From assembly GCF_014397115.1 (NCBI RefSeq), contig NZ_CP060720.1:1442001-1506000 (forward strand): a stretch of DNA of 64,000 bases, read 5' to 3'. Within the stretch, counting starts at the first letter, position 1. Every line of letters begins with the position of its first letter. The translations under genes and the position numbers were made by a program. Shown here piece after piece: positions 40,457-61,816 of the stretch. Below the pieces are notes generated by a model, which saw only the letters and a program-made list of their open reading frames with translations, had not been told where the DNA came from and searched no databases. The DNA is from Vagococcus carniphilus. Its GTDB lineage: Bacteria; Bacillota; Bacilli; Lactobacillales; Vagococcaceae.

Positions 40457-41755
40457 AATGAAAATTTCTTCAATGCATTGCCCATCTGTGTCTTTAGGGA
40501 ATGTCTTTAAATGAAGTAGTTTGGCAAAAGTAGGAGCTTCATCAACTAACTTGGCTCTATCAACTTTTTGGTTTTCTTTGATGTCAGGACCAAAGAAACA
40601 AGCTGTTGTTTCATAATTAGGTTTTTGAGGATGGAATCCATGGACACCAAAGTAACGATTTGGCTTTCCAATATCCTCTTTAGAAATTGTTTCTATTAGT
40701 TTTCCATCAGCTTCATCGTTAAAATAATAGCCAGGTTTTGCTTCTGCCATTAAAGTTGCGTTAGGATCAGCCCCCATGGAAGCAGCTTCTTTAGAAGAAT
40801 AGATAGTTTCAATTCCTTCAATTGCTGAAACTTCTTGATAAATCTCACGAGGATCAATAGAACTATTCTGTTTACAATAAATATAAGTTGAGCCATCACA
40901 ACTTTTGGCGTAGACTTGCCAATTATCTTTAATAGATCCATTTGGTTTAAGCTCTGCCCATCCTTTTTTGACAAACAATGTGTTGAGTTTAATCATTTTT
41001 TCGACATCAATTTGATAATGATCTCCTAAAATAACAAAATTAGTTGTACTAAATGTTCCGTTCTTTTTTGTGGCGTCGATTATTTTTTTTACTCGAGCAT
41101 CTTGTCTTTTAAGTGCCGCAATAGCTTCAGAGGATTGAACTCCGTAAGCATGTCGCATACTATCCATATCAACGAGATGAATTAAGGTTAAATCAGGTTG
41201 TTTATTTTGAATTGTATCAATGGCACAAGCTGTTACAAAGTCATCTAGGTAAGGCTGCATAATTCCCTTTCTAAGATGCCCATACTTTTGATTCATTTGA
41301 AGTAAAAATAAAGGAGAACTTGCTTTAAGGGAAATCATGACTTGGTTTGTCCAAATTCTGTTTGGAAAAATTTCAGCTATATTGTAATCAATTGAACTAC
41401 TAGCAGTAACAGGCCATAAAAAAGCAGCAGTTTTTTTGCCTTCTTGTTTTGCAATATCGTAAAGTGTAGGAACTTGAATTTCTTTACTGTACCAAAACCA
41501 ATCAGGTGATAATCGGGTCGCTTGCGTTTTTGTGTTGTTAACAATTCCATGTTTATTAGGATATTTACCAGTTACCAGTGTCACATGTGACGGGTAAGTT
41601 AAAGTTGGATAAATACCTTCTATTTTTTTAACATGCGTACCATGGTCAATCAGGTACGAAAGTGTAGGTAAATCATTTTTATGTAAGTCGATATCAACTG
41701 CACCGAGGGCATCAATTGAGATGACAATAAGTTTTGAATTCAATTCGAGCACCAT
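40454..41755 (-). CDS. Alkaline phosphatase superfamily phosphodiesterase
   Basis: A 433-aa protein of the type I phosphodiesterase/nucleotide pyrophosphatase group. Metal-binding and nucleophile segments are visible: VISIDALG, LTYPSHVTLVTG (Thr nucleophile), LVDMDSMRHAYG, VILGDHYQ and GVHGFHP. There is no signal peptide, so it is probably cytoplasmic. The start is uncertain: ATG 41755 overlaps the AAAGGA site, and TTG 41743 has better spacing. The natural substrate is unknown; some relatives act on phosphonates or nucleotide sugars. It diverges from the aro leader promoter. Confidence 0.82.
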   Translation of the reverse strand: MVLELNSKLIVISIDALGAVDIDLHKNDLPTLSYLIDHGTHVKKIEGIYPTLTYPSHVTLVTGKYPNKHGIVNNTKTQATRLSPDWFWYSKEIQVPTLYDIAKQEGKKTAAFLWPVTASSSIDYNIAEIFPNRIWTNQVMISLKASSPLFLLQMNQKYGHLRKGIMQPYLDDFVTACAIDTIQNKQPDLTLIHLVDMDSMRHAYGVQSSEAIAALKRQDARVKKIIDATKKNGTFSTTNFVILGDHYQIDVEKMIKLNTLFVKKGWAELKPNGSIKDNWQVYAKSCDGSTYIYCKQNSSIDPREIYQEVSAIEGIETIYSSKEAASMGADPNATLMAEAKPGYYFNDEADGKLIETISKEDIGKPNRYFGVHGFHPQKPNYETTACFFGPDIKENQKVDRAKLVDEAPTFAKLLHLKTFPKDTDGQCIEEIFI

Positions 41756-41794
41756 CCTTTAAAAATAGTATAACAAAAATCTAGAAAAAATAAA

Positions 41795-41823
41795 TTGACA
41801 AGGATTTTAAATATGGGTATAAT
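41795..41823 (+). promoter_or_regulatory. Consensus promoter of aro operon leader
   Basis: A perfect TTGACA (41795-41800), 17-base spacer and perfect TATAAT (41818-41823). Such a strong promoter about 330 bases upstream of aroE makes control by downstream attenuation sensible. Confidence 0.85.
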
Positions 41824-41860
41824 ATGTACAATTATTAAATAAAACGTTGGAGTGAACGAC

Positions 41861-41935
41861 ATGAATAAACTAAATATGCGTCAAATCTCACAACTGAATA
41901 ACTTTTACTTTAGCTATTATAGATTTAGTTTGTAA
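41861..41935 (+). CDS. Phe/Tyr-rich leader peptide of aro operon, 24 aa
   Basis: A 24-codon ORF with TTGGAG eight bases before its ATG, about 30 bases after the predicted transcription start. Residues 15-22 read FYFSYYRF: six aromatic residues in eight, with no Trp. This matches an operon that makes Tyr and Phe (tyrA, pheA). The stop TAA at 41933 lies inside the first pairing segment of the attenuator that follows. The peptide itself probably has no function; the codons would sense charged Phe/Tyr tRNA. Confidence 0.82.
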   Translation: MNKLNMRQISQLNNFYFSYYRFSL

Positions 41936-42049
41936 CCATAACAAAATGGATACAAACACAACCAAGTTTGTATCTATGAAGGCTAGAGAACTTTAATTTG
42001 ACTTTAAAGGCCGCATAGATGATTAAAATCTATAGTGGCTTTTCTTTTT
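41928..42049 (+). promoter_or_regulatory. Ribosome-mediated attenuator of the aro operon
   Basis: Four mutually exclusive pairings are read directly. 0:1 is GTTTGTA (41928-41934) with TACAAAC (41951-41957), plus CCAT/ATGG. 1:2 is GATACAAAC (41949-41957) with GTTTGTATC (41966-41974), extendable by three pairs. 2:3 is ATCTATG (41972-41978) with CATAGAT (42014-42020), plus GGC/GCC. 3:4 is the terminator. Segment 0 lies in the last codons of the leader peptide. A ribosome stalled at codons 15-20 leaves segment 0 free, giving 0:1 and 2:3 (read-through). A ribosome at the stop masks segment 0, giving 1:2 and 3:4 (termination). Confidence 0.75.
42006..42049 (+). terminator. Attenuator terminator (3:4) of aro leader
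   Basis: A 15-bp stem pairs AAAGGCCGCATAGAT (42006-42020) with ATCTAT-GTGGCTTT, with one bulged A at 42034 and G-U pairs, followed by TTTTCTTTTT. Confidence 0.82.
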
Positions 42050-42078
42050 ATACTGAATAGTAATATTTTATTCGAAAG

Positions 42079-42135
42079 AGACGATACCTGTAGATTTGAT
42101 TAATCAATCTATGCAAGGTTATCGTCTTTTATTTT
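42079..42135 (+). terminator. Second terminator-like hairpin in aro leader
   Basis: AGACGATA (42079-42086) pairs with TATCGTCT (42120-42127). CCT/AGG and TAGATT/AATCTA pair inside, followed by TTTATTTTG. It contains another ATCTATG (42107-42113), the same heptamer as segment 2, so it could interact with segment 3. Confidence 0.6.
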
Positions 42136-42155
42136 GTAATTAGGAGGGAGAAATA

Positions 42156-43043
42156 ATGGGAGACTTAATTTCGGGGAAAACAAGATTAGCTGGTGTTATA
42201 GCTAATCCAATTAAACATAGCTTATCACCAATGATTCATAATACAGCTTATAATGCTTTAAATTTTGATGCAGTTTATTTGGCATTTGAGGTAGAACAAA
42301 AAGAGTTTATACAAGCCATAAAATCAGTGAAAACATTGAATATGATGGGTGTCAATATTTCGATGCCGTATAAGAAAGAGGCTTATGAATTATGTGATGA
42401 GCTAACTGAAAGAGCGAAACTAATAGGTGTAGTAAACACTGTTGTAAATAGAAATAATAAACTTTTAGGAGACAATACCGATGGATTAGGTTTTATTGGT
42501 AGTTTAAAAGATTATGGGGTTTCTGTTAAAGAAAAGATTATAACGATTCTTGGAGCAGGAGGAGCAGCCAAAGCTGTTATTTGCCAAAGTGCTTTGGAAG
42601 GAGCAAAAGAAATTCACGTTTTTAAACGCAAAAATGAAACCTTTGAATCAGTTAAAAGAGATTTAGAAAAAATTGCTGTTAAAACCCATGTTAAAATTAT
42701 GGTTCATGAGTATCATGATAAAAAAGCAATAGAATGTGCTCTTAAAGAAAGTACACTAATCGTGAATAGTACACAATTAGGTATGGGAAATAACAATGAT
42801 TTACCTTTTGATGAGATGAACTTAATTAAAGAGAGTCATGTTGTAGTGGATTTAATTTATCATCCTTTAGAGACACCTTTTTTAAAACAAGCTAAAAAAA
42901 ATAAGGCACTAACAATTAATGGATTAGGCATGTTAGTCCATCAAGCTGCGTATGCCTTTAACTTGATGACTGGAGAAACAATGCCAGTAGATAAAGTAAT
43001 AGAAAAATTAAAAATAGAATTAGTAAGAGAGAAGGAACTATGA
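42156..43043 (+). CDS. aroE: Shikimate dehydrogenase
   Basis: NADPH-dependent enzyme of 295 aa that reduces 3-dehydroshikimate to shikimate. The substrate-binding NPIKHSLSPMIHN contains the conserved Ser residues, catalytic Lys and Asp occur in NISMPYKKEAYE and NTDGLGF, and the NADP loop is ILGAGGAAKAV. GGAGGGAG precedes the ATG. It is the first structural gene behind the Phe/Tyr leader attenuator. Its stop overlaps the aroF start. Confidence 0.95.
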   Translation: MGDLISGKTRLAGVIANPIKHSLSPMIHNTAYNALNFDAVYLAFEVEQKEFIQAIKSVKTLNMMGVNISMPYKKEAYELCDELTERAKLIGVVNTVVNRNNKLLGDNTDGLGFIGSLKDYGVSVKEKIITILGAGGAAKAVICQSALEGAKEIHVFKRKNETFESVKRDLEKIAVKTHVKIMVHEYHDKKAIECALKESTLIVNSTQLGMGNNNDLPFDEMNLIKESHVVVDLIYHPLETPFLKQAKKNKALTINGLGMLVHQAAYAFNLMTGETMPVDKVIEKLKIELVREKEL

Positions 43044-44077
43044 TGATCGTAATAATGAAACAAAATGCAACTAAGGAACAAGTTAATGCAGTTATTAAAA
43101 GAGTAAAAGAAGAAGGATTAGAAGTTCATCTAAGCGAAGGTAAAGAACAAACTATTATTGGCTTAGTTGGTGATACAGAAAAAATGATAGATGTTCCTTT
43201 TAGAGGATTTGACGGAGTGAGTGATACAGTGAGAATTACAAGTAGTTACAAATTAACAAGTCGAGAATTCCATCCAACTGATACTGTTGTTGATGTAGAC
43301 GGTTTAAAAATAGGCGGAGAAGAAAACTTTGTGACAATGGCAGGTCCTTGTTCAATCGAAGGTTTAGATCAAATTATGGAATGTGCAAGGATTGCTAAAG
43401 CTGGTGGAGCAACTGTTTTACGTGGTGGTGCTTTTAAGCCAAGAACGTCACCTTACGCTTTCCAAGGATTAGAAGAAGAAGGGTTAAAATACATTCGTCA
43501 AGCAGCAGATAAGTTTGATATGAAAGTTATTACTGAAGTGATGGATGAAGCTAATCTAGAATTAGTTGCTAAGTATACAGATATTTTACAAATCGGTGCA
43601 AGAAATATGCAAAACTTCAAATTATTAACGGCTGTTGGAAAAACTGGCCTACCGGTTGCTTTAAAAAGAGGTATCTCAGGTACGATTGACGAGTGGTTAA
43701 ATGCTGCTGAATACATCGCAGCTCAAGGAAATCAAAAAGTAATATTTGTTGAAAGAGGAATCCGTACTTACGAAACAGCAACCAGAAATACGCTTGATTT
43801 AAGTGCTGTTCCTGTGATTCAAAAATTAAGTCATTTTCCGATTATTGTTGACCCAAGCCATGGTGTTGGTGTATGGGATTATGTAACACCAATGGCTGTT
43901 GCGGGAATTGCTTCAGGGGCTTCAGGAATGATTGTTGAAATTCATCCAAACCCAAGTCAAGCCTGGTCTGACGGGCAACAAAGTTTAAATGAAAAACGCT
44001 ACATGAATATGATGGAACAAATCCATGTCATGGAAAAAGCAATGAAGGAAGTTAAGTTAATCAGAGAAAAAATTTAA
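43040..44077 (+). CDS. aroF: 3-deoxy-7-phosphoheptulonate (DAHP) synthase
   Basis: First committed enzyme of the shikimate pathway (345 aa), condensing phosphoenolpyruvate and erythrose 4-phosphate. It is of the AroA-I-beta type: an N-terminal ferredoxin-like regulatory domain (about residues 1-75) precedes a KDO8PS-like barrel with MAGPCSIE, GGAFKPRTSPYAFQG and VDPSHGVGVWDYV. The regulatory domain normally gives feedback inhibition, by Tyr in related proteins. Translation is coupled to aroE by an ATGA overlap. Confidence 0.94.
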   Translation: MMIVIMKQNATKEQVNAVIKRVKEEGLEVHLSEGKEQTIIGLVGDTEKMIDVPFRGFDGVSDTVRITSSYKLTSREFHPTDTVVDVDGLKIGGEENFVTMAGPCSIEGLDQIMECARIAKAGGATVLRGGAFKPRTSPYAFQGLEEEGLKYIRQAADKFDMKVITEVMDEANLELVAKYTDILQIGARNMQNFKLLTAVGKTGLPVALKRGISGTIDEWLNAAEYIAAQGNQKVIFVERGIRTYETATRNTLDLSAVPVIQKLSHFPIIVDPSHGVGVWDYVTPMAVAGIASGASGMIVEIHPNPSQAWSDGQQSLNEKRYMNMMEQIHVMEKAMKEVKLIREKI

Positions 44078-44088
44078 GGAGATCGTCA

Positions 44089-45153
44089 ATGAAACTAACA
44101 GTTAATCTACCAACAAAATCATATGATTTATTAATCAAAAAAGGTTCTCTAAATGATGTTGGAAAATGGGTATCAACTATTTGGGACAAGCGACAAATTG
44201 TGCTTGTCTCAGATGAAAATGTTGCCTCAATCTACGGGGACTTAGTTCAACAAAAAATTCAAGATCAGGGATTTGATGTGTCAGTGTACACTATCCCACC
44301 AGGCGAAACAAGTAAAAGTCTTGAAATGGCTGAGAAATTATATGAGTTTTTAGCTTCCAAAAATATGACTAGAAAAGACGGCATTGTTATCTTGGGTGGA
44401 GGAGTTGTTGGAGATTTAGGTGGTTTTGTTGCTTCAACTTATATGAGAGGACTTGATTTTCTTCAAATACCAACAACCCTTTTAGCTCAAGTCGATAGTA
44501 GTATTGGTGGAAAAACAGCAGTGAATACGAAGTGGGCTAAAAATTTAGTCGGCACGTTTGCTCAACCTGATGGTGTCTTGATTGATCCTAATACATTATT
44601 AACTTTAGAAGACAGAAGAATTAGAGAAGGCTTGGCAGAAGTGGTTAAATCAGCAGCTATCGCTGATTTAGAATTGTGGCACTTATTGAAGGATCTTGAA
44701 AATGAACAATCTGCTTTAAATGTTTCAGAGGAAATCATCTATGCCTGTTGTAAGGTTAAAAGAAAAGTTGTAGAAGAAGATGAAAGAGATACAGGCATTC
44801 GCTTGATTTTGAATTTCGGACATACGATAGGTCATGCGATTGAACAAACATATGGTTATGGTGTTATAACTCACGGAGAAGCTGTTGCCATTGGCATGTG
44901 TCAAATAACTAAACAGGCTGAAAAAATGGGTGAGATGCCAAAAGGAACTTTGAAAGAACTTGAAGAAATGTTAAGTAAATTCCATTTACCAACAACTTTA
45001 GATGACTGGCAAGAAGAATCTTTGTTTAAAGCTTTAAGTCATGATAAAAAAACTAGTGGTCAATCAATTCGAATTATCCTATTAAAAGAAATAGGTGAAG
45101 CTAAAATTGAAAGAATTCAACTAGATGAAATGAAGAGTTATTTAAAACGATAA
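44089..45153 (+). CDS. aroB: 3-dehydroquinate synthase
   Basis: A 354-aa NAD- and metal-dependent enzyme converting DAHP to 3-dehydroquinate. Typical segments are GGGVVGDLGGFVASTYMRG, IPTTLLAQVDSSIGGKTAVN, LIDPNTLLTLEDRRIREGLAEVVK [metal-ligand Glu within residues about 170-193], and the His ligands in NFGHTIGHAIE and THGEAVAIGM. AAGGAG precedes the ATG. It is the third gene of the operon. Confidence 0.96.
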   Translation: MKLTVNLPTKSYDLLIKKGSLNDVGKWVSTIWDKRQIVLVSDENVASIYGDLVQQKIQDQGFDVSVYTIPPGETSKSLEMAEKLYEFLASKNMTRKDGIVILGGGVVGDLGGFVASTYMRGLDFLQIPTTLLAQVDSSIGGKTAVNTKWAKNLVGTFAQPDGVLIDPNTLLTLEDRRIREGLAEVVKSAAIADLELWHLLKDLENEQSALNVSEEIIYACCKVKRKVVEEDERDTGIRLILNFGHTIGHAIEQTYGYGVITHGEAVAIGMCQITKQAEKMGEMPKGTLKELEEMLSKFHLPTTLDDWQEESLFKALSHDKKTSGQSIRIILLKEIGEAKIERIQLDEMKSYLKR

Positions 45154-45168
45154 GAAGGGAGTTATTTT

Positions 45169-46335
45169 ATGAGATTTTTTACAGCAGGAGAATCCCACGG
45201 TCCAGAATTGACGGCTATTATAGATGGCTTACCAGCAGGGATACCTTTGTCAACAGGAGATATTAACCATGAGTTAAAAAGGCGACAAGGAGGTTATGGT
45301 CGTGGAGGTCGGATGTTAATTGAAACAGATACAGTGGAAATTACTTCTGGAGTTAGACATGGTAAGACATTAGGTTCACCAGTAACACTAGTCGTTAAAA
45401 ATGATGATTTTAAGAATTGGGAAACGGTTATGGGAATCGAACCAGTTGATGATAGAGCTAAAAAAATTAGAAGATTAGCTAAACCAAGACCAGGTCATGC
45501 TGATTTGGTTGGAGGCATTAAGTATGAACATGATGATTTAAGAAATGTTCTTGAGAGATCTTCAGCAAGAGAAACAACCATGCGAGTAGCAATAGGTGCT
45601 ATTTGTAAAAAAATGCTAAAAGAATTATCAATTGATGTTGCTGGACATGTACTTGAAATTGGTGGCGTTAGAGGTGAAATTCCTCAAAGTATGACTGTTT
45701 CAGAAATTAGAGAAAAAGCAGAAAACTCAGCAGTTAGATGTGTAGATCCTTTAATTGAAGAGGCAATGAAAGAAAAAATAGATGCTACTAAAAAAGAAGG
45801 TAATACAATTGGTGGTGTTGTAGAAGTAGTCGTTGGGGGAGTTCCAGTTGGTTTGGGAAGTTACACTCAATGGGATCAAAAATTAGACGGTAAAATTGCT
45901 CAAGCGGTTGTATCTATTAACGCATTTAAAGGCGTAGAGTTTGGTGTTGGCTTTGAAGCTGCTAGACTTTATGGCAGTGAAGTAATGGATGAAATTGTCT
46001 GGAGTAAGGAGACTGGATATACAAGAACCAGTAATAATTTAGGTGGTTTTGAAGGTGGTATGACTAACGGAATGCCCGTTGTTGTTCGAGGTGTGATGAA
46101 ACCTATTCCAACTCTATATAAGCCATTACAATCTGTTAATATTGATACTAAAGAACCATATAAAGCAAGTGTTGAACGTTCTGATAGTTCTGCCGTTCCA
46201 GCTGCTTGTGTTGTAGCAGAAGCAATGGTAACTATTGAAATAGCAAAAGCAATGTTAGATAAATTTGAAAGTGATTCGTTTGAAAGAATGAAACGTGATG
46301 TAGAACGTTATCGTCAGGATACTTTGAATTTTTAG
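45169..46335 (+). CDS. aroC: Chorismate synthase
   Basis: FMN-dependent enzyme of 388 aa making chorismate from 5-enolpyruvylshikimate 3-phosphate. The family signatures [49 protein letters not shown] and [15 protein letters not shown] are intact. It needs reduced FMN supplied by another flavin reductase. GAAGGGAG precedes the ATG. Gene spacing of 15 bases or less on either side indicates operon transcription. Confidence 0.97.
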
Positions 46336-46359
46336 AAAAAAATGAGAAGAGGTCCTACT

Positions 46360-47463
46360 ATGAAAAAAAATATATTAATGATTGGAATCGGTCTGATTGG
46401 TTCCTCGATAGCGTTGTCGATTAAAGAAACGACGAAAAATGCTATAATCGTTGGTTTTAGTCATAATGAAAAGGAATTGTTTGGAGCAAAATCACATCAA
46501 ATTATCGATAAAATTAACTTGAATTTAGAAAAAGCAGCTCAAGAAGCAGATGTCATTTTTCTTTGTACTCCAGTCTCTGTTACATTGAAGTTAATACAAG
46601 AACTCTCTACTTTTTCATTGAAAGAATCAGTGATTATTACTGATGTGGGGAGTACGAAAGTAGAAATAATGAATCAGGCACAAGTTTTGTTAGATAAAGG
46701 ATACACATTTATTGGTGGGCATCCAATGGCAGGGTCACATAAGTCTGGCTTTTTGGCAGGTAATAAAGATTTATTTGAAAATGCTTATTATATACTTGTT
46801 CCAACAGGTAACGAAATGAACGAACAAATGACCTGTTTAACTGATTTATTGACTGGAACAAGGGCTAAAATAGTGATTCTTGATGCCTACGAGCATGATC
46901 AAATAACAGGGATTTTGAGTCATATGCCTCATATTATAGCAGCTCAACTAGTCCAACAAGCTGATGATTTGATGGTTCAAAATCCGATATCTAAAAAACT
47001 GGCTGCAGGAGGATTTAGAGATATTACAAGGATTGCTTCATCAGATCCTAAAATGTGGACAGATATTTCTAAAAGTAACGCAGTCATTTTAGAAAAAGAG
47101 ATTGATAACTGGTTAGTTAAATTATCTGATTTTAAAGATATATTGAAATCAGATAAGGAAGTAGAAATTTTTAATTTTTTTGAACGATCGAAGAAAGTAA
47201 GAGATGAGATTCCAGTTCATAAAGAAGGAACGATACCGGGATTTCATGATCTCTATATAAATGTGCCTGATTATCCAGGTGCGATTGCTGAAGTAACAGC
47301 AATATTGGCCAAAGTTAATATTAGCTTAATTAATATAAAAATTATGGAAACAAGAGATGATATATTCGGAATTTTACGAATCTCGTTTAAAAATGAGAAG
47401 GATTTATTTCTGGCTAAAGAAGCTGTAGCAAAACATACACCGTATGAGAGTGTTATTAATTAG
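46360..47463 (+). CDS. tyrA: Prephenate dehydrogenase with ACT domain
   Basis: A 367-aa NAD-dependent enzyme converting prephenate to 4-hydroxyphenylpyruvate on the tyrosine branch. The Rossmann motif IGIGLIGSSIAL is at the N-terminus, the GGHPMAGSHKSG active-site segment follows, and a C-terminal ACT domain (about residues 295-367, DLYINVPDYPGAIAEVTAILA) suggests Tyr feedback. ATG 46360 follows AAGAGG by seven bases and is preferred to an upstream ATG at 46342. Confidence 0.94.
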   Translation: MKKNILMIGIGLIGSSIALSIKETTKNAIIVGFSHNEKELFGAKSHQIIDKINLNLEKAAQEADVIFLCTPVSVTLKLIQELSTFSLKESVIITDVGSTKVEIMNQAQVLLDKGYTFIGGHPMAGSHKSGFLAGNKDLFENAYYILVPTGNEMNEQMTCLTDLLTGTRAKIVILDAYEHDQITGILSHMPHIIAAQLVQQADDLMVQNPISKKLAAGGFRDITRIASSDPKMWTDISKSNAVILEKEIDNWLVKLSDFKDILKSDKEVEIFNFFERSKKVRDEIPVHKEGTIPGFHDLYINVPDYPGAIAEVTAILAKVNISLINIKIMETRDDIFGILRISFKNEKDLFLAKEAVAKHTPYESVIN

Positions 47464-47472
47464 GAGGATGTT

Positions 47473-48762
47473 ATGAAATTAAAAACAAATGCTCATTCAC
47501 TTAGAGGGACAATCACAGTTCCTGGAGATAAATCAATTTCACACCGTAGTATTATGTTTGGGTCATTAGCAACAGGAACAACTGAAATCTCTCATTTTTT
47601 AAGGGCAGATGATTGTTTAGATACGTTGAAACTTTTTAAACAAATGGGAGTTCCTATAACAGATGATGGGAAAAAAATTACCATTGAAGGTGTCGGGTTA
47701 AGAGGATTAAAAAATCCAGGAAAGACTTTAGATGTTGGTAATTCTGGCACAACGATTCGTTTGCTTATGGGAATTCTAGCTGGACAATCTTTTTCTGCAA
47801 CATTAACAGGGGATAGTTCCATACAAAAACGCCCAATGAATCGTGTTATGCTACCTTTAAAAGAAATGGGAGCAAAAGTAGAAGGAAATCAGCAGTCAGA
47901 GTTTCCTCCAATACAAGTAACTGGTGTAAATGATTTACAACCCATTAATTATCATATTCCTGTTGCAAGTGCCCAAGTTAAATCTGCATTAATTTTTGCA
48001 GCTCTTCAAGCGTGTGGTGAAACAACATTAATTGAAAAAGAGAAAACTAGAAATCACACAGAAGTTATGATTAAACAGTTTGGCGGGAACATTGAAGTAG
48101 AAGAAAAAACAATTCGGGTTAAAGGAAATCAAACTTTTACAGGTCAATCTATCTCAATACCGGGAGACATCTCTTCTGCTGCATTTTTTATTGCAGCGGG
48201 ATTATTAGTTCCAGGTAGTCAAATTACGTTAAAAAATGTCGGATTAAGTGAAACCAGAACTGGTATGATTGATGTGGTTAAAGCTATGGGCGGTAATATT
48301 GAGATAACCGAAATAGACGAATTAAATGAATCTGGAAATATCATTGTTAGTTCAAGTCAGCTTGTAGCAACTGAAATTAGTGGTGAATTGATTCCTAGGT
48401 TAATTGATGAAATTCCAATTATTGCTTTACTTGCTACTCAAGCAAAAGGTGAGACTCTTATTAAAGATGCTGAAGAGTTGAGAGTAAAAGAGACGGATAG
48501 AATCCAAGCTGTTTCTGATGAATTGAATCGATTAGGTGCATCAATTACGCCAACTGCTGATGGTTTAGTCATTCAAGGTGAAACTAAATTGACTGGTGGG
48601 ACAGTAACGAGTTACGGAGATCATCGAATTGGAATGATGCTCCAAATTGCAGCTCTTATTGTGAAAGAAGGAGAAGTAGTTCTTGATAAAAGTGAGGCTG
48701 TTTCCGTTTCATACCCTACATTTTTTGATGATTTAAATGAACTGATGGAGCAAACGATATGA
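47473..48762 (+). CDS. aroA: 3-phosphoshikimate 1-carboxyvinyltransferase (EPSP synthase)
   Basis: A 429-aa enzyme that joins phosphoenolpyruvate to shikimate 3-phosphate, the glyphosate target. Signatures [37 protein letters not shown] and [13 protein letters not shown] are intact. In the glyphosate-contact loop the motif is GNSGTT rather than the GNAGT of class I, consistent with Gram-positive class II enzymes. GGAGG precedes the ATG, and the stop overlaps aroK. Confidence 0.96.
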
Positions 48763-49274
48763 AACAGTTAACTTTAATTGGTTTTATGGGATCAGGTAAA
48801 TCAACAACAGGTCAAATGCTATCAAAAGAATTGGGAATACCTTTATTAGAGTTAGATCAAATGATTGAAGAAGAAACCAAAATGAGTATACCTGATATTT
48901 TTGATTTAAAAGGTGAAGCTTATTTTAGAGAATTAGAACATATCGTTTTAATTAAGTCTTTAAATTCAAGAGGTGTTATTGCAACAGGTGGAGGAATATT
49001 AACCAATAGCAAAAATGTTGAACAGTTAAAATCCACTCGTAATGTTATCTATTTAAAAGGAAAAGACAGTACATTGATAGAAAGAATTAAGAACGATTCT
49101 GTCAATAAAAGACCACTAGCTGATACTAGCACAGAACTTGAAATTACAAAAAGATTAGAGAATAGAGTTAACCAATATGAAGAAGTAGCAGATATAATCA
49201 TAGAAATTGAAAATAAGAGTATTTCAGAAATAACTTTAGAAATTATGAATCAATTAGAGGAGATGAAAGAATGA
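48759..49274 (+). CDS. aroK: Shikimate kinase
   Basis: A 171-aa P-loop kinase phosphorylating shikimate. Walker A is GFMGSGKST (Lys14), the shikimate-binding Asp occurs in [11 protein letters not shown], the GGG motif is ATGGGIL, and the LID region contains RPLADTS. Its ATG overlaps the aroA stop (ATGA), and its own stop overlaps pheA in the same way, so three proteins are translationally coupled. Confidence 0.94.
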
Positions 49275-50119
49275 GAGTTGGTTATTTAGGTCCAAAAAGT
49301 TCATTCACCTACAAAGCAACAAGGAGTTTTTTTAAAGAAGCAGAACTGTCTCCATTACCAACAATTGTTTCAACTTTAAAAGCAATTGAAATGAATCAAT
49401 TTGATTATTGTGTGATACCTATAGAAAATTCTGTCGAGGGTACGGTTCATCCGGCCCTTGATTTTTTATACCATCAAGCAAATGTACCTGTACAGGCAGA
49501 AGTGATTCTTCCGATATCACAAAATTTGATGATTCATCCCAACTGGATAGGAAAGATAAATCAGTTAAAAGCAGTAAAATCACATCCACAAGCTTTAGCT
49601 CAAACGCAACAATTTTTAGAAGAAAATTATTCTAGTTTAAAACAAGAGATTACAGATTCGACGACTCAAGCAGCCAAATGGATTTCAGATAATAAAGACG
49701 AGCCTGTTATGGCGATTGCTTCAAAGGAAGCGGCTAAAGAATACCAATTAGAAATTATACAATCAGATATCCAAGACATGAAAACTAACCAAACGAGATT
49801 TTGGGTGATTGGAAGAAAAAAGATAAATTGGTATAAAGAAAAATCACCAATATTTAGACAGACTATTGGTGTTAAAATGGAACAAAATCAAGCGGGTAAT
49901 TTACACAAAATACTATCAGCTTTTAGTTGGCGAGGAATTGATTTAACTAAAATTGAATCGAGACCATTGAAAACAAGGTTAGGAGATTATTTTTTCTTAA
50001 TTGATATTAAAGTAGAAAATCTAATCTTAGTTGAAATGGCTCTGAAAGAAATAACCGAATTAGGTGGAGAAATAAAAGTTTTTGGTACTTACTATGCACA
50101 TCAAACCATCAATTGTTAG
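49271..50119 (+). CDS. pheA: Prephenate dehydratase
   Basis: A 282-aa enzyme of the phenylalanine branch. The N-terminal dehydratase domain starts VGYLGPKSSFTYKA and contains VIPIENSVEGTV and the catalytic TRFWVIG; a C-terminal ACT domain with ESRP (about residues 200-275) provides Phe feedback. No chorismate mutase domain is fused, so the mutase must be encoded elsewhere or be missing from this operon. It is the last gene before a gap of 94 bases. Confidence 0.95.
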   Translation: MRVGYLGPKSSFTYKATRSFFKEAELSPLPTIVSTLKAIEMNQFDYCVIPIENSVEGTVHPALDFLYHQANVPVQAEVILPISQNLMIHPNWIGKINQLKAVKSHPQALAQTQQFLEENYSSLKQEITDSTTQAAKWISDNKDEPVMAIASKEAAKEYQLEIIQSDIQDMKTNQTRFWVIGRKKINWYKEKSPIFRQTIGVKMEQNQAGNLHKILSAFSWRGIDLTKIESRPLKTRLGDYFFLIDIKVENLILVEMALKEITELGGEIKVFGTYYAHQTINC

Positions 50120-61430: not shown

Positions 61431-61452
61431 GAAATGGGTTAAAACATATAAA

Positions 61453-61816
61453 TGGAAGCGGCGGGAGTCGAACCCGCGTCCAAACATATTGTCACTTAAA
61501 TTTCTACACTCATAGTCATACTATTTAGAGATTCGCTTTGTTTCATGCCGCATAACAGGCCCTAAACATCGCTAGTCTGATAATCTCTTTTAAACTTTAC
61601 AGACGGAAAAGTTTAATGTATCCCACTTAGTTTGAGACCCTTACTCGAGCACATGGGCGATGCCGAGAGGATCTTTGCTCGCTGTTTTTAGGCAGCTAAA
61701 GCAAAAGTATTGTTTTCGTTTTTAGCAGTTATATTTAACTGTAACGTTTTTACGTAGACGTAACCTACGAAGTGCCATTCAAGCTCAACTATGCCTGTCG
61801 AATCCGTAACGCCCCC
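61453..61816 (-). ncRNA. ssrA: Transfer-messenger RNA (tmRNA)
   Basis: A 364-nt RNA that rescues stalled ribosomes. The minus strand begins GGGGGCGTTACGGATTCGAC and ends with the tRNA-like T-arm GGTTCGACTCCCGCC followed by an encoded CCA (61453-61455). The tag ORF (61688-61726) reads AKNENNTFALAA and then TAA, close to the enterococcal tag. The 5' and 3' acceptor strands pair as expected for an alanyl-accepting end. A promoter and terminator flank it. Confidence 0.97.

Follow-up and report, generated by a model that had tools for sequence, protein, structure and literature searches.

A candidate leader-peptide attenuator with Phe/Tyr codons upstream of the aro-tyrA-pheA operon of Vagococcus carniphilus, and its sister branch with Trp codons

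Organisation of the locus

The window analysed here is a stretch of 64,000 nucleotides of Vagococcus carniphilus (contig NZ_CP060720.1, positions 1,442,001 to 1,506,000), and our subject is the leader region at positions 41795-42155 of the window, upstream of an aro-tyrA-pheA operon. Judged from its sequence, this region very probably is a ribosome-controlled leader-peptide transcription attenuator with phenylalanine (Phe) and tyrosine (Tyr) codons, as a sequence-only reading of the same DNA had proposed. All features of the leader and the operon lie on the + strand.

The first gene of the operon is aroE, encoding shikimate dehydrogenase (42156-43043; PF08501 and PF18317, with TIGR00507 above its cut-off). 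It is followed by genes for DAHP synthase (43040-44077; PF00793, with NF006421 above its cut-off), 3-dehydroquinate synthase (aroB, 44089-45153; PF01761), chorismate synthase (aroC, 45169-46335; PF01264), prephenate dehydrogenase (tyrA, 46342-47463; PF02153), EPSP synthase (aroA, 47473-48762; PF00275), shikimate kinase (aroK, 48759-49274; PF01202) and prephenate dehydratase (pheA, 49271-50119; PF00800). The sequence-only reading had called this a complete shikimate operon. The operon is indeed large, but the 3-dehydroquinase (PF01487) is encoded elsewhere in the same genome (G000:C1:1805221-1805904), so it is not complete.

The leader starts with a sigma-70-type promoter, TTGACA-17-TATAAT (41795-41823). 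Only its match to the consensus at 12/12 positions is notable, because a promoter scan found three promoter-like sites in the region, against an average of 4.3 in shuffled sequences. The -10 box was aligned as TATA(A/C)T across 20 leaders of the family, in an alignment that stops short of the -35 box. A Shine-Dalgarno (SD) sequence, read as GGAGTGA (41849-41855), precedes an open reading frame (ORF) of 24 codons (41861-41935) that encodes the leader peptide MNKLNMRQISQLNNFYFSYYRFSL. Six Phe/Tyr codons fall within its last ten codons, and the motif (Q/K)LNNYYFSYFR recurs in relatives. The promoter, SD sequence and 24-codon ORF of the sequence-only reading are thus all present.

The RNA downstream of the start codon can be divided into segments with alternative partners. 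Segment S0 (41908-41924) is the codon stretch CTTTAGCTATTATAGAT itself, and pairs with positions 41972-41988 of segment 2 in the minimum free energy (MFE) structure. Segments 1a (41928-41939) and 1b (41946-41957), which the sequence-only reading had numbered 0 and 1, can pair with each other, and 1b can pair alternatively with 2a. Segment 2 (41966-41988) comprises 2a (41966-41977) and the antiterminator part (41972-41983), and has S0, 1b or segment 3 as its partner. Segment 3 (42010-42020) pairs with segment 2 or 4, and segment 4 (42026-42039) with segment 3 or 5. The helix 3:4 forms terminator 1, with a U-run at 42040-42049. Segment 5 (42088-42097) is complementary to segment 4 and lies within the 5' arm of a second terminator hairpin, 5:6 (42078-42127; -18.7 kcal/mol in the window), which ends in the U-rich tail TTTTATTTT (42127-42135). 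A simple terminator scan reported neither of these two + strand terminators.

The fold of 41840-42060 has an MFE of -53.7 kcal/mol (z = -5.84; none of 200 shuffled sequences reached it), and is dominated by S0:2, that is, by aromatic codons paired with segment 2. The four pairings of the sequence-only reading were recovered at or near their proposed positions (41928-41957, 41946-41977, 41972-42020 and 42010-42039, plus flanking pairs). This scheme was right but incomplete, as it missed the pairing of the codons with segment 2, the helix 4:5 and the second hairpin.

Occurrence in related genomes

The leader of the window matches two Rfam families below their gathering cut-offs, namely RF02863 (sRNA_2410; 45.4 bits, E 3.8e-6, cut-off 61) and RF04312 (trpB motif; 31.2 bits, E 0.025, cut-off 59). 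Two relatives with the same leader and architecture score above the cut-off of RF02863 (L008, 70.1 bits; L021, 65.0 bits). The element of the window is a sister branch of RF04312 and stands outside its membership. No T-box was matched, either in the window at the gathering threshold or in 41700-42400 at E up to 5. A T-box or other known riboswitch is ruled out, as the aro leader has no match over the cut-off.

Among 295 genomes of the window's order, matches with E <= 1e-3 were found in 160 genomes for RF04312 and in 158 for RF02863; matches above the cut-off were found in 52 and 72 genomes, respectively. For each family we read 90 matches (the 30 best loci and 60 picked for spread over genera). 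In RF04312, these were 85 leaders with tryptophan (Trp) codons found by script, one of which (L124) lacks an ATG; one further Trp leader recognised by eye just upstream of the match (L120, MKKAKQFSWQL followed by a stop codon); three Phe/Tyr leaders (L135, L143, L150); and one match without a leader (L132). In RF02863, 89 were Phe/Tyr leaders and one was degenerate (L194). Hence an intact leader was absent in only two of the 180 matches, L132 and L194. The former is a false positive below the cut-off, and looks like ordinary back-to-back hairpins. The latter, of the Phe/Tyr type, stands ahead of a gene resembling that for DAHP synthase; a stop codon interrupts its frame before the motif, and it is perhaps decaying. 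In the 88 scripted cases of RF04312 the Rfam match begins 5 nt or more downstream of the leader's end, so the peptide was no part of what the search sought; the RF02863 match covers the last 17-26 nt of the leader.

Within the window's family, 20 of the 29 genomes carry a Phe/Tyr leader ahead of aroE. In loci L016, L019 and L025-L030, which have no Phe/Tyr leader, inspection by eye revealed, directly ahead of aroE, a promoter with a short leader and a hairpin that looks like a terminator; the arms of this hairpin often resemble GACGTTTA..TAAACGTC. Seven of these eight loci gave no Rfam match at E up to 0.1, and L026 gave none at the gathering threshold. They possibly carry another attenuator.

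A DNA pattern of the codon core occurred in at least 118 stretches in named genomes, of which 80 loci were read. The matches listed come from Enterococcus, Streptococcus (including S. pneumoniae and S. mitis), Tetragenococcus, Vagococcus, two metagenome-assembled genomes named only to order, and two clostridia. Among these, the enterococcal leaders precede an ABC transporter, DAHP synthase, aroB, aroC, aroE or aroK, with a Pfam check on one enterococcal example each for the last four. The gene behind the leader encodes a PF00209 symporter in both Clostridium moniliforme and Eubacterium multiforme (Pfam was run on the Eubacterium one). At these clostridial loci (L236, L265) the leader stands before the Na+ symporter gene with two similar terminator hairpins in tandem. 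In a wider search of the phylum, RF04312 was matched at E <= 1e-4 in three of 398 genomes, which were the window's own genome, one member of its family, and G651 from another family. Inspection of the latter locus (L212) revealed the leader MNYINNFNLKIQIFFNNHFR, followed by a stop codon, ahead of a PF00209 symporter.

Conservation of the leader ORF and the competing helices

Two alignments were used to evaluate the helices. Thinning at 0.80 similarity left 65 rows for alignment A1 and 70 for alignment A2. Without the divergent L150, L162 and L207, A1 finally contained 62 of the 112 Phe/Tyr leaders; without the chance matches L010, L016, L025, L029, L031 and L194 and the wrongly framed L120, A2 contained 63 of the 85 Trp leaders. 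For each helix we determined the cells paired, cells with a double change, pairs with a double change, a covariation score and further pair types, in comparison with 500 shuffles and six slid versions of the helix.

The leader ORF is conserved in both branches. When start codons were judged without reference to the motif, the best ATG behind an SD sequence was in frame with the leader stop codon, and open, in 61 of the 62 Phe/Tyr leaders and in all 61 Trp leaders that possess such an ATG (two of 63 lack it), compared with a chance expectation of 1/3 for the reading frame. Hence, on sequence, a short SD-preceded ORF lies upstream of the regulated gene in almost every leader that could be tested.

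In A1, all six helices exceeded their six slid versions in both cells paired and covariation score, and exceeded nearly all shuffles. The four pairings of the sequence-only reading were conserved, with compensatory changes: 1a:1b was paired in 96.0% of cells (17 double-change cells), 1b:2a in 93.3% (5 double-change cells; covariation reached by 7/500 shuffles), 2:3 in 92.1% (6 double-change cells; covariation reached by 3/500 shuffles) and 3:4 in 92.1% (23 double-change cells; pairs with a double change reached by 93/500 shuffles). The antiterminator and the intrinsic terminator are mutually exclusive on these alignments, with the weakest support for 2:3. The helix 4:5 was paired in 86.1% of 569 cells; none of the other five helices scored in the Phe/Tyr branch had as many double-change cells (43, spread over 9 of its 10 pairs; 0/500 shuffles). 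S0:2 was paired in 91.0% of 987 cells; no shuffle reached it on four of the five measures and 23/500 reached it on further pair types, while one of its 16 pairs was unpaired in 58 of the 62 rows. The serine codon within S0 is AGC in 108 of 109 leaders (three of the 112 lack this serine), compared with 6 of the 157 serine codons in the aro operon. The constraint therefore acts on the RNA.

The Trp branch, analysed as far as terminator 1, has the same competing helices. In A2, 1a:1b was paired in 87.6% of cells (24 double-change cells), 1b:2 in 94.3% (27), 2:3 in 82.0% (19) and 3:4 in 94.3% (88), and a U-run follows 3:4 in all 63 leaders.

The Phe/Tyr branch has a second terminator. Local folding gave hairpin 2, with segment 5 in its 5' arm and a U-run, in 56 of 62 leaders; global folding was distorted by spurious outer pairs and detected it in 23 only. 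A U-run right after 3:4 was present in only 19 of the 62 leaders (21 with another choice of window for the U-run), and both U-runs in 18. The working terminator is therefore the second one in most relatives. Neither U-run was found in five rows (L062, L081, L174, L175 and L176), where segment 5 of L062 appears misaligned by eye. We considered hairpin 2 as an unrelated insertion or an independent terminator; this is ruled out, as its 5' arm covaries with segment 4.

Predicted folding at different ribosome positions

The median distance from the stop codon to segment 1a is 0 nt in Phe/Tyr leaders (n = 112; exactly 0 in 42) and -2 nt in Trp leaders (n = 85; exactly -2 in 36). This closeness is partly built in, as the search for 1a was confined to the stretch between 9 nt upstream and 13 nt downstream of the first base of the stop codon. 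Segment 1a lies 6 nt (Phe/Tyr) or 8 nt (Trp) past the end of the last aromatic codon, and 21 or 16 nt past that of the first one. From this spacing it follows that a ribosome at the stop codon would mask 1a, and that a ribosome on the earlier aromatic codons would not.

We calculated the probability of 2:3 in RNA up to segment 3, with a ribosome covering 10 nt past the A-site codon, for 61 of the 62 Phe/Tyr and 62 of the 63 Trp leaders. In Phe/Tyr leaders the mean probability was 0.16 without a ribosome; it was 0.77 when the ribosome stood on the motif's first aromatic codon, and 0.08 when it had reached the stop codon. In Trp leaders it was 0.33 without a ribosome, 0.85 at the first and 0.75 at the last aromatic codon, and 0.17 at the stop codon. 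The probability was above 0.5 in the stalled state and below 0.5 at the stop codon in 48 of 61 Phe/Tyr and 52 of 62 Trp leaders. With footprints of 8 and 12 nt, switching was predicted in 39 and 47 of the 61 Phe/Tyr leaders and in 34 and 51 of the 62 Trp leaders. The leader of the window had probabilities of 0.00 without a ribosome, 0.98 and 0.04 at the first and last aromatic codon, and 0.06 at the stop codon. E. coli trpL in the same test, measured as the pairing of segment 3 upstream, gave 0.15 without a ribosome, 0.62 stalled and 0.00 at the stop codon.

Leader codons and downstream genes

The first ORF downstream encodes an ABC binding protein in 145, aroE in 21, a trpB-like protein in five and a DAHP synthase in two of the 180 loci, i.e. 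173 in total. Four of the remaining loci have another ORF first, and three have no ORF within reach. These families were assigned by group and verified on examples. At L032 the Trp-type leader is followed first by an ORF for a reverse transcriptase (PF00078), perhaps of an inserted group II intron, instead of a transporter gene.

Three ABC substrate-binding proteins that were scanned contain PF04392. In a tree of 144 downstream substrate-binding proteins of this kind, the 77 with a Trp leader and the 67 with a Phe/Tyr leader fell on opposite sides of one branch (100 in the SH-like approximate likelihood ratio test), which corresponds to one change of leader type versus a mean of 48 in shuffled data. 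This was a quick tree with several long end branches (e.g. L150 and L176), and L120 was left out. The proteins behind the three Phe/Tyr leaders that had matched RF04312 lie in the Phe/Tyr part of the tree. With the NCBI model for TrpX (cut-off 390), a protein behind a Trp leader passed with a score of 478.5, while two behind Phe/Tyr leaders failed (338.9 and 324.4). The window's genome encodes a single such substrate-binding protein, and its gene follows a Trp leader (L144). The leader codons are cognate to the downstream genes: Phe/Tyr leaders precede aro genes or one ABC clade, whose substrate is itself predicted, and Trp leaders precede the TrpX clade or trpB-like genes.

A family 3 solute-binding protein (L199, PF00497) and an ABC permease (L207, PF02653) are also encoded behind Phe/Tyr leaders, which suggests that these two proteins may be specific for aromatic compounds. 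Elsewhere in the window, a transfer-messenger RNA gene is located at 61450-61816 on the - strand (RF00023, 213.7 bits).

Discussion

We propose that the leader peptide would sense charged tRNA-Phe and tRNA-Tyr through its Phe/Tyr codons, presumably both of them. When these tRNAs are short, the ribosome would stall on the aromatic codons and cover S0; helices 1a:1b, 2:3 and then 4:5 could form, both terminators would be blocked, and transcription would read through into aroE-pheA. When charged tRNAs are plentiful, a ribosome at the stop codon would mask 1a, and segment 2 would be captured by 1b. Terminator 1 (3:4) and terminator 2 (5:6) would then fold, and transcription would end. Without a ribosome, or after its release, S0 would capture segment 2, so that S0:2, 1a:1b, 3:4 and 5:6 would again give termination. 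We propose that S0:2 may act as a lock that favours termination when nothing translates.

The ORF, the pairings, their conservation and covariation, the spacing, and the predicted fold switching as far as segment 3 support this attenuator. The stall and stop logic of the sequence-only reading likewise gains support from the ORF, the helices, the spacing and a fold test with an outcome like that of E. coli trp. The response in vivo, the commitment to 2:3 during transcription, and the 4:5 step in the running switch are predictions of this scheme.

Several observations weigh against this interpretation. The central helix 2:3 is the weakest one: in A1 its further pair types were reached by 91/500 shuffles and its pairs with a double change by 25/500. 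In the Trp branch the versions of 2:3 slid by -3 to -1 are richer in double-change cells (29, 27 and 26 versus 19), the slide of -2 has a higher covariation score (0.188 versus 0.162), and further pair types were reached by 35/500 shuffles; perhaps these better slides are due to the sharing of segment 2 with 1b and S0. S0:2 was paired in just 74.3% of the cells in A2, with 48 double-change cells. Its pairs with a double change were reached by 171/500 shuffles and were no better than in the slides of +1 to +3, of which +2 and +3 had more. Pairing of 5:6 counted column by column in A1 was 56.5%, in a part where the alignment is poor. A ribosome stalled at the last aromatic codon gave a probability of 2:3 of just 0.40 in Phe/Tyr leaders, and the low value in the window agrees with this. 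Furthermore, once segment 4 is included, 3:4 dominates every state at equilibrium (0.81-0.90 in the Phe/Tyr branch). Switching would therefore depend on the order of folding, i.e. on kinetic commitment; in E. coli trp, too, the terminator wins in every state once segment 4 is included. The conserved QLN upstream of the aromatic codons has no explanation in this scheme: among the 62 Phe/Tyr leaders, 43 have (Q/K/E)LN, some 8-10 codons ahead of the final Arg, and among the 85 Trp leaders, 34 have LN, some 3-5 codons ahead of the first Trp; the Leu codons vary (CTG, TTG, TTA, CTA). Finally, our literature search turned up no starvation experiment on these elements.

The RNAs themselves have been described before with other interpretations. 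According to a study of 2015, the gbs1262 and gbs2033 elements of Streptococcus agalactiae (195 and 270 nt) lie upstream of paralogous ABC operons, and RNA-seq showed two RNAs that share one start, one short and one long, indicating premature termination (PMC4448216). The same source describes them as conserved in Lactobacillales, before aroFBC-tyrA of E. faecium (gbs2033 type) and trpB of F. nucleatum, and labels them new riboswitches for aromatic amino acids or their precursors. A study of 2024 likewise presented the trpB motif SRC-39-1, which has over 900 representatives, as a strong candidate for a riboswitch (PMC11109978). A conserved RNA with alternative terminator and antiterminator folds upstream of aromatic genes is what a metabolite-binding riboswitch would have. 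However, a riboswitch does not predict an SD sequence with an in-frame open ORF in nearly all testable leaders, nor an exact match between the type of aromatic codon and the transporter clade, nor a stop codon near the edge of 1a. The conserved bases in A1 and A2 lie, by eye, in the codons and the competing helices, without a large unpaired conserved core, and the 2024 authors themselves left a classic attenuator open as a possibility (PMC11109978). We therefore regard a riboswitch as very improbable. For the trpB motif (RF04312), leader-peptide attenuation through Trp codons is the most likely explanation instead, because elements of the same build, with Trp in place of Phe/Tyr codons, lie before genes for TrpX-type transporters and before trpB. 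The Rfam entry RF02863 implies a trans-acting small RNA, in line with a discrete RNA in E. faecium that appears as two transcripts on Northern blots (PMC5593968). Such a role as the main function is hardly credible, as almost all loci have one of the same few gene families first downstream, the leader ORF and the terminators fit the needs of an attenuator, and a short RNA is the attenuator's leftover. This by-product may have a trans role, and we suggest that the two transcripts of sRNA_2410 could perhaps be explained by two terminators or by processing.

Control of the same sign could also arise if free Phe/Tyr (or Trp) arrested the ribosome at the leader stop codon through the nascent peptide. 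TnaC offers a comparison for ribosome arrest at a leader stop. Such a sensor would account for the conservation of non-aromatic residues, that is, of the (Q/K/E)LN and LN with their varied Leu codons. However, the S and R of FSYFR are accounted for by the RNA pairing of S0, QLN is absent from divergent leaders, and the S0:2 lock makes an arrest at the stop codon unnecessary. Hence this explanation seems improbable as well, and we retain attenuation by the position of the translating ribosome.

The RNAs, their gene association, their alternative terminator and antiterminator folds, and premature termination are already known. Compared with the literature searched, we propose as new the leader peptides, the reading of RF04312 and RF02863 as attenuators, the lock formed by the codons, the relay through 4:5 and 5:6, and the assignment of transporters from the leader codons. 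The literature found, as far as its text was available, does not name these leader peptides, and a search with peptide strings gave nothing relevant. The attenuator is a proposed answer for an orphan riboswitch candidate with its many representatives (PMC11109978), accounts for the 'sRNA' of Rfam, and offers a mechanism for the termination observed by RNA-seq in S. agalactiae (PMC4448216). Moreover, the leader codons alone would predict substrates for two ABC-transporter clades (the scanned examples all match the TrpX model) and for the clostridial symporter. We regard the element as a member of a superfamily in Lactobacillales whose two branches are labelled otherwise in Rfam (RF04312 and RF02863). 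A wider reading, rather unlikely as a whole, would make this superfamily possibly a principal regulator of the uptake and synthesis of aromatic amino acids in the order, with the codon lock, the relay to a second terminator in the Phe/Tyr branch and, through the conserved QLN, perhaps a further signal of free amino acid given by the nascent peptide.

By their published description alone, gbs1262 corresponds to the Trp branch and gbs2033 to the Phe/Tyr branch (PMC4448216). The best-scoring members of RF02863 carry the same leader, ending in LNNFYFSYFR and a stop codon; the Rfam type differs in that it is an Enterococcus sRNA gene, without a leader peptide or cis function. RF04312 shares the segment order and the competing pairings of the window element, and differs by its Trp codons (SWQNWRR before the stop) and by a U-run directly after 3:4 in every aligned leader. 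Within the Firmicutes, leader-peptide attenuators with histidine codons are known from bacilli, Peptostreptococcaceae and Erysipelotrichales (PMC2965389, PMC9413887); the likeness is in the kind of control, and the difference in the histidine genes and the other lineages. A histidine survey of 2022 (cited with the same two sources) reports that Lactobacillales hold most of the T-boxes found, and T-boxes are treated in PMC2494555. The elements described here would add an order-wide aromatic example to the few leader-peptide attenuators reported in Firmicutes, as far as these sources go.

In the his attenuator of Salmonella and E. coli, several alternating helices act in relay, with the terminator at the end. 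The trpL and pheL leaders of E. coli resemble the present elements in their cognate codons and alternative pairings. The present elements differ in the pairing of the antiterminator segment with the codons, and most of the Phe/Tyr members also in the additional helices 4:5 and 5:6.

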